The notes under the pieces were generated by a model, which saw nothing but the letters and a program-made list of their open reading frames with translations, was not told where the DNA came from and did no database searches. A program made the position numbers and the translations under genes. This document shows positions 18,415 through 39,728 of a stretch of DNA of 43,198 bases, one piece after another; position 1 is the first letter of the stretch, and each line of letters opens with the position of its first letter. Location of the stretch: the NCBI GenBank assembly GCA_012839095.1, contig DUOA01000028.1, positions 1-43,198 of the forward strand. Reading direction: 5' to 3'. This stretch comes from Clostridiales bacterium. Its GTDB lineage: Bacteria > Bacillota > Clostridia > Caldicoprobacterales > DTU083.

Positions 18415-18508
18415 GAAAACATTGTAGAATATTTTGTAAGTCTTTTTATTTCAATTCACGCTTTGATCTATGACATTATTGACACCATTTTGAATGGAGG
18501 CGCCGTCA

Positions 18509-21500
18509 TTGCCGGTAAAACGAATTTATACAGAAAAAAAAGAAAACTATCAGGTTGAGGCAAAAGCCTTGCTTGAAGACCTGAGATCCAACCTGGGCAT
18601 TAAAGGCCTCAGCAGCGTACGCATTGTAAACCGCTATGATGTGCAGGGAATCAGCGAGGAGGAATATTTGCAGGCCAGGGATATTATTTTCAGCAACCCT
18701 CCTGTGGATCGGTACTACGAGGAAACACTGCCGACAAAAACCGGACAGCTTATGTTTGCCATGGAATATCTGCCCGGTCAGTATGATCAGAGAGCTGATT
18801 CTGCGGCTAAGGGGATTCAGCTGCTTACGCTGGGGGAAAAGCCCATAGTAAAGACAGCCAGGCTCATTCTGCTGGATGGAGAGATCAGTCCGGCAGAGCT
18901 GGATAAAATAAAGAATTACTGTATAAATCCGGTAGAATCCAGAGAGGCATCCCTGGAAAAACCCGACACCCTCGATGCCGGATACGAAGCAGCCAAAGAT
19001 ATCGAGCTGGTGAATGGTTTCATTAACATGACCGATGATGGGCTTGCTGCATACTGGCGGGATACAGGTTTTGCCATGACTCTGGCGGATTTGCGGTTCT
19101 GCCGGAAATATTTCCGGGATACGGAAAAGCGGGATCCAACCATCACTGAACTCAAGGTTATAGATACCTATTGGTCGGACCATTGCCGTCATACTACATT
19201 TCTGACCGGTATCAGACAGGCAGAATTTAAGCAGGGTCCTTATATCGGCAAAATAGAGTCAGCATATCGCAGATACCAGGAAATCCGACAGGAAATATAT
19301 TCAGACAAACCAAAGAATGAGTGTCTGATGGACATTGCCACTATTATAATGAAGAAAATGAGAAAACAGGGTCTTCTTGATGATCTGGACGAATCAGATG
19401 AGGTTAATGCCTGCAGCATAGGGGTAAAAGTGGATGTTGACGGTGAACTGCAGGACTGGCTGCTTATGTTCAAAAACGAGACCCACAACCATCCCACGGA
19501 AATTGAGCCTTTCGGCGGTGCAGCAACCTGCCTGGGAGGCGGTATACGGGATCCTCTTTCCGGCAGATCCTATGTATATCAGGCCATGCGCGTCACAGGG
19601 AGCGCTGATCCCAGGACACCTCTTGATCAGACTATACCGGGAAAACTGCCCCAGAGAAGAATTACCATCGATGCAGCAGAGGGCTACAGTTCATACGGCA
19701 ACCAGGTCGGCGTGGCGACTGGTCAGGTTGCGGAGATTTATCACCCCGGCTACGCTGCCAAGCGTATGGAAATCGGAGCCCTGATTGCGGCAGCTCCCCG
19801 GCAGAATGTTGTCCGTGCCAGACCCCAGACAGGAGATATAGTGATACTGCTGGGAGGCCGGACCGGCAGGGATGGCTGCGGCGGAGCCGTCGGATCCTCC
19901 AAGGCCCATGATGAGGAGTCACTTATTAGTTGCGGTGCCGAGGTTCAGAAGGGAGATCCTCTCACTGAGCGCAATATACTCAGATTGTTCCGCAAACCCG
20001 AGGTTGCCGGAATGATCAAAAAATGCAATGATTTCGGGGCAGGCGGAGTATCAGTGGCCATAGGTGAACTGGCAGCCGGCCTGGATATTAATCTGGATGC
20101 AGTACCCCCGAAATATGAAGGTCTTGACGGAACAGAACTGGCCATTTCCGAGTCGCAGGAGCGGATGGCAGTGGTTCTGGCACCGGAAGATGAAAAAGCT
20201 TTCATCCAGGCCGCCCGGGAGGAAAACCTGGAAGCGACTGTGGTTGCCCGGGTAACGGATACCCGTCGTATGAGAATGAAATGGCGGGGCAGGTATATAG
20301 TTGATATCAGTCGTGAGTTTCTGGACACCAATGGTGTTGAACAGTTCACTGATGTATCCGTTTTGTCTCCATCCACTGACAGGCCTTACTTCAGCGCCCA
20401 AAATACAGATAAGATGCATTGGAAAGAAAAATGGCTTTCCCTTGTCCGGTCATTGAATATCTGCAGTCAGAGAGGATTGGCAGAGCGCTTTGACAGCACC
20501 ATAGGGGCTGCTACCATATTACTGCCCTATGGCGGCAGGTATCAGTTGACTCCTGCTGAGGGAATGGCTGCCAAGATCCCAGTGCTTGGTGGAGAAACCA
20601 ATACCGCCACCCTCATGGCCTATGGATTTAATCCTGACATTTCCACCTGGAGTCCCTTCCACGGAGCAGTATATGCCATTGTGGAGGCAGTTGCGAAAAT
20701 TACTGCCATGGGGGGAGACTACAGAAAAATCCGCCTGACCCTGCAGGAGTATTTCGAAAAGTTAGGTGACGATCCGGAAAGGTGGGGTAAGCCCTTTGCT
20801 GCTTTGCTGGGTGCCATGTATGCCCAGGAAATGCTGGGTATTCCCGCCATAGGCGGAAAGGACAGTATGTCCGGCACCTTCGAGGATTTGGACGTTCCCC
20901 CCACCCTGGTAGCCTTTGCGGTCACAACAGCCAGAGCGGACCAGGTACTCTCACCGGAGTTCAAGTCAGCAGACAGCATGGCGGTATTGATAAAGCTGGA
21001 CAGGGATGAGAATGATCTGCCCGATTTTGAACAGCTTCATCGCAAATATACAAGCATTCAAGGGCTGGTACAAGAGGGGAAGATCAGAGCTGCCCATTCC
21101 GTTCGAGGCGGCGGGATTGCTGAGGCCATAAGCAAAATGTGTTTTGGCAACCGGATTGGGTTTGTATTTGAACCTATTGAGGAAAATATACTGTTCCAGC
21201 CCATGTATGGTTCCCTTATCCTGGAGATTTCCAGGGAAGAATCATTGTCCGACTGGTTCGAAGAATCAGATTTCATCAAACTGGGATACACCTCCGGCAA
21301 TGAAGTTATATCGGTCGATGGTGGGGAATTCCCTTTGGATGAGGTATTTCAGGCTTGGGACAGTCCTTTGGAATCCATCTTCCCTGCCAGTGTTTCCAAG
21401 AAGTCTGAAAAACAGGAATTATTCCGTTATGATAGGAGAAACAGTTATCGTCCTCTAATAAAAATCCCTTCTCCGAAAGTGTTTATACCGGTATTCCCGG

Positions 21501-22267
21501 GAACCAATTGTGAGTATGACACTGCCCGTGCCTTTGAGAAGGCCGGCGGAATCCCGGATATGATGGTATTCCGAAATCTTTCTCCCCGGGAAATTAAGGA
21601 GTCCATTCAGGAATTGGCAAACAGAATAAAAGAAGCCCAGATTCTGATGATACCGGGCGGATTAAGCGGCGGCGGTGAACCGGACGGAGCAGGCAAGTTG
21701 ATTGCAGCAATTTTCCGCAATCCCATAGTCAGTGATGCTGTTTTTGATCTGCTCAGAAACCGGGACGGCCTGATTCTGGGTATAGGTGACGGTTTCCATG
21801 CATTGCTCAAACTGGGGCTTGTTCCATATGGTGAGATTCGGGATGCCGGAGCTGATTCTCCTGCATTGGTCATCAATACCATAGGGCGGCACGTGTCGCG
21901 CATGGTACAGACCCGTGTTGCATCGGTCCTGTCTCCATGGCTGGCTCTGTCCAATCCCGGTGATATCCATACAATTCCCGTTTCCCATAAAGAAGGAAGA
22001 TTAACAGCTGATCCTGAGCTAATCAGAAGTTTGGCTGCCAGCGGACAAACAGCAACCCAATATGTGGACCCGGAAGGTTGTCCGACAGGGAATTATCCTT
22101 ATAATCCCTTTGGTTCATTGGATGCCATAGAAGGAATTACCAGCCCTGACGGCAGGGTATTCGGTAAGATGGGTCATTCCGAGCGTACTGGAGCCAATGT
22201 GGCCAGGAACATGCCTGTATCCGGGGAACAGTTGATTTTCCAATCAGGCGTTAACTATTTCAAATAG
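18509..22267 (+). CDS. purL: Phosphoribosylformylglycinamidine synthase, one-chain type, with inactive-looking glutaminase domain
   Basis: This 1252-residue protein has the single-chain clostridial/streptococcal FGAM synthase layout. After the N-terminal domain come two AIR-synthase-like halves (YWSDHCRHTTF, ETHNHPTEIEPFGG, GGKDSMSGTF) and a C-terminal class I glutamine amidotransferase domain (PVFPGTNCEYD, PGGLSGGGEPDG, GKMGHSER). It converts FGAR to FGAM in purine synthesis. The nucleophile motif, normally GICNGFQ, reads GIGDGFH: Cys is Gly1093, and Asn and Gln are also changed. Glutamine hydrolysis should be lost, so it would rely on free ammonia or another subunit. The synthetase motifs look intact. 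The TTG at 18509 is chosen because GGAGG lies eight bases upstream; ATG 18494 precedes that site. No other pur genes are adjacent, so it may be a diverged second copy. Confidence 0.88.
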   Translation: MPVKRIYTEKKENYQVEAKALLEDLRSNLGIKGLSSVRIVNRYDVQGISEEEYLQARDIIFSNPPVDRYYEETLPTKTGQLMFAMEYLPGQYDQRADSAAKGIQLLTLGEKPIVKTARLILLDGEISPAELDKIKNYCINPVESREASLEKPDTLDAGYEAAKDIELVNGFINMTDDGLAAYWRDTGFAMTLADLRFCRKYFRDTEKRDPTITELKVIDTYWSDHCRHTTFLTGIRQAEFKQGPYIGKIESAYRRYQEIRQEIYSDKPKNECLMDIATIIMKKMRKQGLLDDLDESDEVNACSIGVKVDVDGELQDWLLMFKNETHNHPTEIEPFGGAATCLGGGIRDPLSGRSYVYQAMRVTGSADPRTPLDQTIPGKLPQRRITIDAAEGYSSYGNQVGVATGQVAEIYHPGYAAKRMEIGALIAAAPRQNVVRARPQTGDIVILLGGRTGRDGCGGAVGSSKAHDEESLISCGAEVQKGDPLTERNILRLFRKPEVAGMIKKCNDFGAGGVSVAIGELAAGLDINLDAVPPKYEGLDGTELAISESQERMAVVLAPEDEKAFIQAAREENLEATVVARVTDTRRMRMKWRGRYIVDISREFLDTNGVEQFTDVSVLSPSTDRPYFSAQNTDKMHWKEKWLSLVRSLNICSQRGLAERFDSTIGAATILLPYGGRYQLTPAEGMAAKIPVLGGETNTATLMAYGFNPDISTWSPFHGAVYAIVEAVAKITAMGGDYRKIRLTLQEYFEKLGDDPERWGKPFAALLGAMYAQEMLGIPAIGGKDSMSGTFEDLDVPPTLVAFAVTTARADQVLSPEFKSADSMAVLIKLDRDENDLPDFEQLHRKYTSIQGLVQEGKIRAAHSVRGGGIAEAISKMCFGNRIGFVFEPIEENILFQPMYGSLILEISREESLSDWFEESDFIKLGYTSGNEVISVDGGEFPLDEVFQAWDSPLESIFPASVSKKSEKQELFRYDRRNSYRPLIKIPSPKVFIPVFPGTNCEYDTARAFEKAGGIPDMMVFRNLSPREIKESIQELANRIKEAQILMIPGGLSGGGEPDGAGKLIAAIFRNPIVSDAVFDLLRNRDGLILGIGDGFHALLKLGLVPYGEIRDAGADSPALVINTIGRHVSRMVQTRVASVLSPWLALSNPGDIHTIPVSHKEGRLTADPELIRSLAASGQTATQYVDPEGCPTGNYPYNPFGSLDAIEGITSPDGRVFGKMGHSERTGANVARNMPVSGEQLIFQSGVNYFK

Positions 22268-31261: not shown

Positions 31262-32338
31262 TCAAACCTCCTGATCCTGTCTCCATTCCCGTACGGTTTC
31301 TATCATAGCCAGATAACCTTCAGTAGGCACGTAATCCGGTATGGAGTTTCCGGTACTGAAGGCTATTCCCCCGCGCCCCTTAATCCTGTTAAGGCAGTCT
31401 AAGACATAGTCTCTGATGTATTCCCGGGAATAACGGCAAAGCACATCCGTATCTATCCCTCCGAAATTTGCAATGCGGTCTCCATATTTCTCTACCCATA
31501 CGGTAAAGTGTGCGATTTCATCCTCGTTGGAGTGTTTTGCATCAATGTTGGCAATGTCAATTATATCGTCAAATACACTGAACAGGTTTCCGCAGGAGTG
31601 CAAAAGGAAAGGCTTACCCTTGGAATGAACCTTGTCAGTTATACGGCGGTACTGGGGCAGTATATGGGTGCGTATGTCATCGGCAGACAGCAGAGTAGAG
31701 CTCTTGAATCCCAGATCATCACCAAACCGCAGAATGCAGAACACATCGGAAAATTCATCCATGAAACGATCCCAGATTTTATACTGAACATCACCCATTG
31801 CTTTGAACAGATCTGCATACAGTTCTTCATCATCTGCTTTAATATAGCATAAATCAATATAGCCAACGATATCCTGAACCGCTTCAAACAAACCATTGCC
31901 GACTCCGCCTACCGCTTTCATGCCGGCAGGACATGCAGCTGCAAAATTACGAATTTGATCCGCATACATACTAAAGTAACGCTCAGGTATTTCATCCCAG
32001 GGGTAGCGCTCAAAATCAGATCTGTCTTTAATGCATCCTTCCTTGTGGTCTCCCAGTGCCCCTCCTCCGACCAGGGCACCGCAAAGGCCGAATTCCATAG
32101 AGGCGGTATCATATCCCATCTGTTTCCAGAAGTTCCAGTATTGCCTGAATCCTTCCCGACTATCAGCCCTGTCTTTTGAATTACATAGTTCATATGGATT
32201 GCTGCCGGTAATTTCACGGATAACTTTTTCTCCGATAATATGCTCATAGAGGGGGATTCGATCCACCCAGCGATTGCAGGCAACCTGTACCATGTTGTTA
32301 TAATCCGGTTCGAAAACATACTTTTTAACGAGGTACAT
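31262..32338 (-). CDS. Uroporphyrinogen decarboxylase (URO-D) superfamily protein
   Basis: This 358-residue protein has the late URO-D segments: FLLHSCGNLFSVFDDI, followed by IDAKHSNEDE, then NFGGIDTDVLCRY and GGIAFSTGNSIPDYVP. The HxC pattern in LLHSCGN matches zinc ligands of the methyltransferase branch (MtaA/MtbA-like) rather than the heme enzyme, so it is not a porphyrin decarboxylase. Substrate unknown; methyl transfer is one option, but no corrinoid protein lies in the window. It is co-directional with the regulator upstream and the amidohydrolase downstream (38-base gap). GGAGAT precedes ATG 32338. Two further URO-D proteins lie on the plus strand of the same locus. Confidence 0.75.
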   Translation of the reverse strand: MYLVKKYVFEPDYNNMVQVACNRWVDRIPLYEHIIGEKVIREITGSNPYELCNSKDRADSREGFRQYWNFWKQMGYDTASMEFGLCGALVGGGALGDHKEGCIKDRSDFERYPWDEIPERYFSMYADQIRNFAAACPAGMKAVGGVGNGLFEAVQDIVGYIDLCYIKADDEELYADLFKAMGDVQYKIWDRFMDEFSDVFCILRFGDDLGFKSSTLLSADDIRTHILPQYRRITDKVHSKGKPFLLHSCGNLFSVFDDIIDIANIDAKHSNEDEIAHFTVWVEKYGDRIANFGGIDTDVLCRYSREYIRDYVLDCLNRIKGRGGIAFSTGNSIPDYVPTEGYLAMIETVREWRQDQEV

Positions 32339-37555: not shown

Positions 37556-37568
37556 GAGAAAAGGTGTG

Positions 37569-38675
37569 ATGTTCGAAGTGAATTCGAAGGAAAGACTGTT
37601 AACTGCCATTAAGGGGAAAGTGCCGGACAGGCTCCCTGTTACAACCCACCATCTTATGCATTCCTACCTGCATGGGAAGATGGGAGGAATGACCAATCAG
37701 GAATTTTTTGAGTATTTTGGTTTGGATGCCATTCATTGGACAAATTCTGCAGAATATAAGGAAGATCAGTTGGAGAACTGGCGTATAACCAGTGTTGAGC
37801 TGGAAGGCCAGAAATACCCCTCCAGACGATACACTATTCATACGCCTGATGGAATGCTGACCTGTGTATTGCAGTATAATGAACACACTATCTGGGTATC
37901 GGAGCATCTGCTGAAGGATAAAAAGGATATCGATATTCTGGCAAAGCACATGCCCAGTCCTTATTGCGACGTTAAATATATAAAAGAAGAATCATCCAGG
38001 CATCCGAATTCGTTGATAAGAGGCAATATAGTTTGCGCCGATATCTTTGGTCAGCCTGGCTGCTGGCAGGATGCCGCATGTCTCTATGGTATTGAAAAAC
38101 TTATAGTGGAAACTTTTGATGATCCTGCCTGGGTACATGAGCTATTGCAGATTTTACTGAAAAGGAAATTGGATTACGTGAACACTATGTCAGGGGCTCC
38201 TTTTGATATTCTGGAGCTTGGCGGTGGAGATGCCTCTTCAACAGTCATCTCTCCAAAAATATTTGACAGCTTTGTAGCACCCTATGACAGCAAAATTATC
38301 GAATCAGCCCACGAAAACGGGCAAAGAATTGTTTATCATACCTGCGGCGGGATGATGCCCATTTTAGAGAACATAGCTGCTATGAAACCTGATGCCATGG
38401 AGACCTTTACACCGGCGGGCATGGGCGGTGATGCAGACCTGAAGCTGGCGAAGAAACGCATAGGGGACAAAGTCTGTATGATTGGCGGGTTTGATCAGTT
38501 CCATTTTCTGACAGGATGTACTCCGGAGGAAACCCGCAGGGAAGTACGCCGCTGCTTTGAGGCTGCCGGAGAAGGCGGCGGTTATATACTGTCTCCTTCT
38601 GATCACTTTTTCGAGGCGGAGACAAGTTTATTAATGGCATATGCTGATGAAGCACGTAATTGTGTTTATAAATGA
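37569..38675 (+). CDS. URO-D superfamily protein, second copy in locus
   Basis: This protein of about 368 residues has the URO-D opening NSKERLLTAIKGKVPDRLPV, a central SLIRGNIVCADIF region and RIVYHTCGGMMPILENI with the HxCG motif. AMETFTPAGMGGDADL and DKVCMIGGFDQ follow. The HxC motif again favours the methyltransferase-like branch over heme synthesis. The start is ATG 37569 or the adjoining GTG 37566; AAAGG is close upstream. It follows the regulator by 13 bases and precedes a third URO-D gene. The three copies are clearly different sequences, not recent duplicates. Confidence 0.78.
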   Translation: MFEVNSKERLLTAIKGKVPDRLPVTTHHLMHSYLHGKMGGMTNQEFFEYFGLDAIHWTNSAEYKEDQLENWRITSVELEGQKYPSRRYTIHTPDGMLTCVLQYNEHTIWVSEHLLKDKKDIDILAKHMPSPYCDVKYIKEESSRHPNSLIRGNIVCADIFGQPGCWQDAACLYGIEKLIVETFDDPAWVHELLQILLKRKLDYVNTMSGAPFDILELGGGDASSTVISPKIFDSFVAPYDSKIIESAHENGQRIVYHTCGGMMPILENIAAMKPDAMETFTPAGMGGDADLKLAKKRIGDKVCMIGGFDQFHFLTGCTPEETRREVRRCFEAAGEGGGYILSPSDHFFEAETSLLMAYADEARNCVYK

Positions 38676-38762
38676 TTGGAAGGCTATCATAAGTAATATA
38701 AGAAAATAAATATTCCGACCGGCTGATGTAAAGTCATTGAGGAATGATGGGAGATGTATATT

Positions 38763-39728
38763 ATGACACCAAAACAAAGATTTATTGCAGCACTGGAAAG
38801 GCAGCCTGTAGCCGGACATGTACCGCACTTCGAACTTGTGTTTTATCTGACTATGGAATCCATTGGTAAGGTACATCCCACCCACAGAGTATTTCATCAA
38901 TGGGATCAGATGTCCCAGAAAGAAAAGGCCTTGCAGAGAAGGGATGCTGCTCAAACCTATATAGACATTGCCGACAAATACCAGCATGATGCGATTTTTG
39001 TCCATTCCTTTGTCCCAGGTGCAGATGAAATGATTCTCTTATTGGAATCCATTCGTGAAATATCCGGAGATCGGTACTTTCTGATGATGCACGGGGATCC
39101 TACCTTCAGTATTCCGGGAGGAAACAATATGATAGAGGAATCCGTTCTGTTCTATGAACAGCCCGAGCTTATGAAAAGCAGAGCGCAGAAACAAGTGGAT
39201 GAAATGCTTCAGTATGTGGAGACAATTGCTAAAACCGGCTTGTTGGACGGTGTGGGAATGTGCTCGGATTACTGTTTTAACACCAATCCATTTTTAAGGC
39301 CATCCATGTTTGCGGAGTTCGTTACACCTTATCTGGCTAAGACTATTGAAGCATATCGCTCAATGGGATTATACTCCATAAAGCATACTGATGGAAACAT
39401 CATGCCCATTATAGATCAATTGGTACAGTGCAAACCGGATGCACTCCATTCCCTGGATCCCCAGGGGGGAGTTGATTTGGCTTATGTAAAGAAAACATAT
39501 GGTGATCAGGTATGTTTAATCGGTAATGTAAATTGTGCATTGCTGCAAAATGGTACTGAAGAGGAAATGTCTGCTGATGTACTGAGGTCACTTCGTGACG
39601 GAATGAGCGGAGGTTACGGTTATATATTTTCAACGTCCAATTGCATCTATACCGGCCTGGCATTGAGCCGTTATGAGACGATGCATAAATTATGGAGAGA
39701 GCATGGAATTTACCCCGAAGACAAGTGA
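38763..39728 (+). CDS. URO-D superfamily protein, third copy in locus
   Basis: This 321-residue protein opens TPKQRFIAALERQPVAGHVP, a URO-D start. GLLDGVGMCSDYCFNTNP and SIKHTDGNIMPIIDQLV follow; the usual HxCG site reads HTDG, with Asp in place of the cysteine ligand. CKPDALHSLDPQGGVDL and DQVCLIGNVNC come after. The lost ligand suggests a different metal site or a partner role. ATG 38763 is preferred to ATG 38754, which directly abuts the GGGAG ribosome site. It ends 16 bases before the next gene. Confidence 0.75.
   Translation: MTPKQRFIAALERQPVAGHVPHFELVFYLTMESIGKVHPTHRVFHQWDQMSQKEKALQRRDAAQTYIDIADKYQHDAIFVHSFVPGADEMILLLESIREISGDRYFLMMHGDPTFSIPGGNNMIEESVLFYEQPELMKSRAQKQVDEMLQYVETIAKTGLLDGVGMCSDYCFNTNPFLRPSMFAEFVTPYLAKTIEAYRSMGLYSIKHTDGNIMPIIDQLVQCKPDALHSLDPQGGVDLAYVKKTYGDQVCLIGNVNCALLQNGTEEEMSADVLRSLRDGMSGGYGYIFSTSNCIYTGLALSRYETMHKLWREHGIYPEDK

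Follow-up and report, generated by a model that had tools for sequence, protein, structure and literature searches.

Loss of the glutaminase nucleophile in a clostridial one-chain FGAM synthase, a probable case of a recurrent shift to free ammonia

To our knowledge, glutamine is regarded as the almost universal nitrogen source of purine synthesis at the PurL step. The PurSQL complex of Bacillus subtilis and Thermotoga maritima and the clostridial one-chain PurL (TIGR01857 type) carry out the same reaction; in the former the subunits are separate and the cysteine of the glutaminase PurQ is intact, in the latter the corresponding class I glutamine amidotransferase (GATase) domain forms the C-terminus of the chain. 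Enzymes with a lost glutaminase cysteine have been described elsewhere. Human CPS1 has Ser294 in the place of the cysteine of its fused ancestral glutaminase domain and uses ammonia only (PMC4655335). Escherichia coli PurF in which the cysteine is exchanged for Ala or Ser loses the use of glutamine and retains only ammonia activity, according to work cited in PMC3261824. For archaeal PurF' proteins, which have Ser instead of Cys, ammonia use has been proposed as a hypothesis, and in the same survey the cysteine of PurQ and large PurL is fully conserved in archaea (PMC3261824). We found no report of a PurL without this cysteine in the open-licence papers that we searched; subscription journals lay outside the search.

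Here we analyze the PurL encoded on a stretch of 43,198 nucleotides (the window; contig DUOA01000028.1 of assembly GCA_012839095.1, here genome G000). It shares with the clostridial one-chain PurL the full-length homology, the N-terminal, linker and synthetase parts, the C-terminal GATase fold and, in its relatives, the operon partners. However, it lacks the nucleophile cysteine, its glutamine site and several synthetase residues are changed, and glutamine use is not expected. With human CPS1 it has in common the fused domain with a replaced cysteine and, as we suggest, the use of free ammonia, but pathway and synthetase are different, and here we see many independent bacterial losses affecting several enzymes at once. 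A PurSQL set also occurs in the window genome, on contig C71.

The PurL of the window and its glutaminase domain

In a profile search the window PurL matches TIGR01857 with 1760.7 bits (cut-off 1057) over the whole model (positions 1-1239 of 1239) and thus belongs to this equivalog. The N-terminal and synthetase parts are well preserved: 223 of 230 columns which are at least 98% conserved in the cysteine-bearing proteins are kept. The features are collected in Table 1.

Table 1. Features of the one-chain PurL gene in the window
Feature	Position	Strand	Evidence
One-chain PurL (FGAM synthase, TIGR01857 type), 1257 aa, glutaminase-dead	18494..22267	+	TIGR01857 full-length match
FGAM synthetase core, conserved	19451..21325	+	TIGR01736 match, 264 bits; 223/230 conserved columns retained (N-terminal plus synthetase)
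Class I glutaminase domain (GATase_5), decaying	21473..22261	+	PF13507, 246 bits; domain model; 12/76 conserved columns lost
Former nucleophile motif GICNGFQ, now GIGDGFH	21779..21799	+	Sequence, alignments
GGT, Gly1098 replacing the catalytic Cys	21785..21787	+	Aligned to Cys of StPurL and of 109 cysteine-bearing homologues
CAT TCC GAG, His1228-Ser-Glu1230, remaining triad residues	22175..22183	+	MGHSER motif kept
Asn68 (Glu in 106/107 cysteine-bearing proteins), co-lost signature position	18695..18697	+	
Val407 (Leu in 106/107), co-lost signature position	19712..19714	+	
Asn494 and Leu496 (Lys, Gln in 106/107), co-lost signature positions	19973..19981	+	
Pro539 (Lys in 106/107), co-lost signature position	20108..20110	+	

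The GATase_5 match comprises residues 994-1256. Within it the motif context reads LGIGDGFHALLKLGLVPYGEI, compared to LGICNGFQALIKLGLVPYGEI in relatives. In an alignment with solved structures Gly1098 (counted from the ATG at 18494) falls on the catalytic cysteine of Salmonella PurL (LALGVCNGCQ), and the neighbouring Asn1099 and Gln1102 are replaced by Asp and His. An earlier note on this DNA had read the exchange of the cysteine and of both neighbours correctly from the sequence and had placed the codon rightly; only its residue number, 1093, was off by five. Of the catalytic triad of class I enzymes the cysteine of the G-x-C-x-G elbow is therefore missing, and His and Glu are present. When the predicted structure of the domain, a model of moderate confidence (mean pLDDT 74, pTM 0.80), was compared with the PDB by Foldseek, Salmonella PurL and Thermotoga PurQ came out on top. 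Together with the PF13507 match this suggests that the fold is probably kept.

The damage to the domain is more than chance. The window PurL has lost 12 of the 76 GATase columns which are at least 98% conserved in cysteine-bearing homologues. In a leave-one-out comparison the cysteine-bearing proteins themselves lose a median of 0 such columns and, at the 95% quantile, 2.7.

The neighbours of the gene are unrelated to purines, comprising an efflux/ABC transporter set and sugar genes. Farther downstream the window encodes three URO-D-family proteins (31262-32338 on the minus strand, 37566-38675 and 38754-39728) near GntR/LacI-type regulators, an alpha-mannosidase and sugar enzymes.

Recurrent cysteine loss and the changes that accompany it

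We collected 135 distinct full-length TIGR01857-type homologues from related genomes and named GTDB contigs. The cysteine is missing in 26 of them, that is, in the window PurL and 25 others (21 Gly, 5 Ser); this is not a frequency, since part of the set was picked for absence of the cysteine. Among the 80 named closest homologues just three are without it. A partial PurL of G005, outside the full-length count, has Asn at this position. The genomes concerned span nine family codes and include a finished one, which we take to be that of Herbivorax saccincola GGR1. A tree from which the glutaminase domain was left out shows 16 changes of the trait, and well supported branches force at least 14 of these. 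Besides the loss in the window, related clostridia have thus lost the cysteine on about 14 further, independent occasions. All trees were made with FastTree, and the association tests below rest on them.

Two further observations concern the distribution of the gene. G238 encodes two one-chain PurLs (on C26 and C31), one with and one without the cysteine, which are not sisters in the tree. G007, which belongs to the window's family and consists of one contig, lacks PurM, has only remnant one-chain PurL fragments (C1:2164778-2165039) and has apparently lost de novo purine synthesis.

Once dead, the glutaminase domain is relaxed and evolves faster. The ratio of the terminal branch lengths of GATase and synthetase is 1.36 for the 26 cysteine-less rows and 1.33 for the window, compared to a median of 0.78 for 101 cysteine-bearing rows (Mann-Whitney p 2.7e-10, calculated on a fixed topology and uncorrected for kinship).

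Synthetase residues have repeatedly changed together with the cysteine. Ten N-terminal and synthetase positions read EDDCALTKQK in 101 of 109 cysteine-bearing proteins, and every cysteine-less protein has between 2 and 9 changes there. In 14 independent pairs K539 (about 11 pairs), K494 (11), L407 (about 10) and T409 (about 10) are lost along with the cysteine and never in the opposite direction. The p values of about 0.001 to 0.002 are optimistic, as the positions were chosen from the same data. Groups of 26 cysteine-bearing proteins drawn at random for comparison showed at most 5 losses at one signature column, the cysteine-less group 21. One cysteine-bearing protein, L103, looks like an intermediate; it has three signature changes and a damaged glutaminase part (GLSVGNE, and Asn for His1165). 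Our guess is that these residues sit along the ammonia path or in the coupling between the domains. We do not claim that they lie on the ammonia exit loop of StPurL (residues 643-680; PMC3815217), as rough numbering puts K539 elsewhere.

Nitrogen supply of purine synthesis in the cysteine-less genomes

In 24 of the 27 cysteine-less genomes we found no separate PurQ with PF13507 searches, the completeness of the drafts being variable; one of the 24, G238, also has its cysteine-bearing one-chain PurL. In G014 the operon runs GuaA-PurC-PurL-PurE-PurF-PurM-PurN-PurH-PurD, and its PurL, PurF (Ser) and GuaA (truncated) are all glutaminase-dead. Similar rows exist in G026, G048, G392 and G005; in all five genomes, none of which has a PurQ, the cysteine-less PurL adjoins PurE or PurC and PurF-M-N-H-D. 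Nearly all cysteine-less genomes that were examined for PurF and PurM have them. From this operon context of the orthologues, and because no other FGAM synthase was found, we infer that the cysteine-less PurL makes FGAM from FGAR and ATP. Judged from the sequences it would thus be a genuine FGAM synthase and no side paralogue, fed most likely by free ammonia, as no PurQ was found in 24 of 27 genomes and several genomes have the gene within a complete pur operon.

The other purine amidotransferases point in the same direction, GuaA most clearly. We counted a GuaA as dead when its Cys or triad His was changed or its glutaminase domain truncated or absent. This applies to 18 of 20 genomes with a cysteine-less PurL and to 1 of 21 with a cysteine-bearing one. 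In nine independent pairs the losses in GuaA and PurL go seven times in the same and never in the opposite direction (p 0.016, or 0.03 if the extra live GuaA copies in G000 and G039 are taken to rescue the loss). GuaA is without any glutaminase domain in G048, G149 and G392 (318-336 aa) and was not found, or not found in full, in G024, G026 and G099. The window genome has on contig C3 a GuaA of 452 aa in which the synthetase part is intact, the cysteine is gone and a large part of the glutaminase domain is deleted.

For PurF the picture is less uniform. It lacks the cysteine in G000, G002, G004, G006, G008, G012 (moved start, or His), G014, G017, G026 (Ser) and G392 (Gly). In a plain table the loss occurs in 9 of 18 cysteine-less-PurL genomes and in 1 of 21 others, but the link does not go beyond shared ancestry in independent pairs and we rejected it. 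The chromosomal PurF of the window genome, in a row PurE-F-M-N-H-D on contig C28, has neither an N-terminal cysteine nor a pro-peptide. Its frame ...NEE*AVIGIYDQ has a TGA at the cysteine position, and a start is possible only at the next GTG, behind GAGG. A selenocysteine at this TGA was considered and rejected because no start codon lies in frame between it and the upstream stop. The old leader codons can still be read upstream (L300:7380-7500), and G006 has the same layout. In G172, G271 and G336 the standard PurF was not found and the only PurF-like protein has about 472 aa and Gly for the N-terminal Cys (GGVFGVVSK); the same protein is a second copy in the cysteine-bearing relatives G214, G242, G254 and G344.

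Further enzymes are affected in some genomes. AsnB-like proteins, for which MCGIAG is expected, read MPGIAG (G099), MSGIAG (G194) and MNNFFG (G006). The TrpG/PabA-like protein of G014 has LGIGLGHQ, with Gly for Cys, beside QFNPES. We found no intact class I amidotransferase glutaminase in G014 (contigs C98 and C89) and no GlmS-like match in the PurF search there, so that this genome is possibly nearly free of glutamine amidotransferases. CTP synthase (PyrG) keeps LGICLGMQ in G000, G021 and G295, so that in these three genomes the loss does not extend to every glutaminase. We also rejected, as a general explanation, that a lost glutamine synthetase is the common cause: the window genome and many other cysteine-less genomes have a GSI-type gene, although six cysteine-less genomes yielded none.

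When the window genome was searched for another purL, purQ or purS, as the earlier note had proposed, a separate purSQL set appeared on contig C71. This contig encodes AsnA, a type III glutamine synthetase (GlnN), NadE, PurC-PurB-PurA-PurS-PurQ-PurL-PurF and GuaA, and further DapF and HisHF. All its glutaminases are intact (GICNGFQ in PurQ, the cysteine in PurF and GuaA). The row is also found in G004 (C248, which ends inside purL), where the proteins are 85-93% identical and the one-chain PurLs of both genomes just 67%, and in G039 (C366), at 77-86% except for PurF, whose match in that genome refers to the other PurF. The synteny purC-purB-purA-purS-purQ-purL-purF-guaA thus spans genomes of two families. 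PurQ and a one-chain PurL occur together only in G000, G004 and G039 among the genomes searched, and all three are cysteine-less. The tetranucleotide correlation to the window is 0.87-0.90 for C71 compared to 0.97 for C28. This is compatible with a horizontally acquired island and also with a common neighbour having contaminated all three bins.

A proposed shift to ammonia and its alternatives

We consider it quite probable that the window PurL is a genuine FGAM synthase with a dead glutaminase half which runs on free ammonia, and that it is one case of a recurrent clostridial shift. The ammonia-dependent enzyme had been among the proposals of the earlier note and is well supported by the sole FGAM synthase in many genomes, the complete pur operons and the decay of other purine glutaminases. 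The enzyme would aminate FGAR with free cytoplasmic ammonia, which we infer from the lost cysteine and the precedents of human CPS1 and PurF (PMC4655335, PMC3261824); the GATase domain would stay as a slowly decaying structural remnant. In this shift PurL, GuaA, in some lineages PurF, and in some genomes AsnB or the TrpG/PabA-like protein have lost their glutaminase sites and would now use ammonia. Probably ammonium-rich anaerobic habitats, for example digesters, make glutamine hydrolysis dispensable, and the glutaminase sites could then be lost by drift, with PurL and GuaA the most prone to it. Herbivorax saccincola is a biogas-reactor isolate (PMC5805879), and, anecdotally, the isolate codes of some other cysteine-less records suggest digester metagenomes. 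Against a full shift, PurF keeps its cysteine in half of the cysteine-less genomes, where the pathway is therefore not wholly off glutamine, and glutamine synthetase and a cysteine-bearing PyrG remain in the window genome.

More tentatively, and here we lean slightly to the negative, certain lineages of anaerobic clostridia may have repeatedly turned purine synthesis to ammonia, together with the majority of glutamine amidotransferases in some genomes, by killing or deleting glutaminases (PurF, PurL, GuaA, AsnB, TrpG/PabA-like) and retuning the synthetases. The window genome, with an ammonia-type set (PurF on C28, the window PurL, GuaA on C3) and, on C71, a glutamine-type set gained by horizontal transfer (PurF, PurSQL and GuaA, with glutamine synthetase), could then switch according to the ammonium supply.

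Among the alternatives, that of a redundant relic is unlikely but the strongest. The intact PurS, PurQ, PurL, PurF and GuaA of C71, the latter two with their cysteines, could have replaced the older PurL, PurF and GuaA, which would then decay without function. With a complete purSQL in the genome, purine synthesis indeed need not pass through the window PurL, and its gene could be in the course of being lost. However, its reading frame of 1257 codons is intact and the synthetase columns are kept as described. The columns lost are mostly the same few as where a cysteine-less PurL is the only copy, the decay is centred in the glutaminase parts and spares the synthetase parts, and C71 itself may be contamination by its tetranucleotide composition.

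Much less probable is a paralogue aminating another substrate, which the earlier note had also considered. Several invariant synthetase residues are changed (K539, K494, L407, Q496), but the position in pur operons without PurQ, the retained synthetase columns and the placement of the window PurL among orthologues in the tree speak against it. We give slightly less weight still to glutamine-derived ammonia provided in trans by another glutaminase, for example the cysteine-bearing PurQ that the window genome does encode. As a general answer this lacks support, given the 24 genomes in which no PurQ was found and G014 with its altered TrpG/PabA-like protein and truncated GuaA domain; moreover, the old GATase domain would still fill the docking place. 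An error in sequencing or assembly, or a chimera from binning, can practically be dismissed: the window stems from a draft genome of 169 contigs and the near relatives G001 and G002 do keep the cysteine, which the earlier note would have taken as a sign of error, but three motif changes, nine more lost domain columns and co-changing synthetase residues, together with the recurrence of the loss in 26 of 135 homologues by at least 14 independent changes and in a finished genome, indicate that the Gly codon is real, as the note had itself argued.

In summary, a free-ammonia PurL would be of interest in several aspects. The many bacterial losses would be a natural experiment on the purpose of the glutaminase domain and the ammonia tunnel, and the co-changing residues would provide a list of what changes once the coupling is no longer needed. 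Family annotation calls these proteins glutamine-dependent, and metabolic models would assign the wrong nitrogen donor. A cysteine-less PurL is possibly a genomic mark of life at high ammonium, and a cultured strain of Herbivorax saccincola (DSM 101079) makes the question directly testable.
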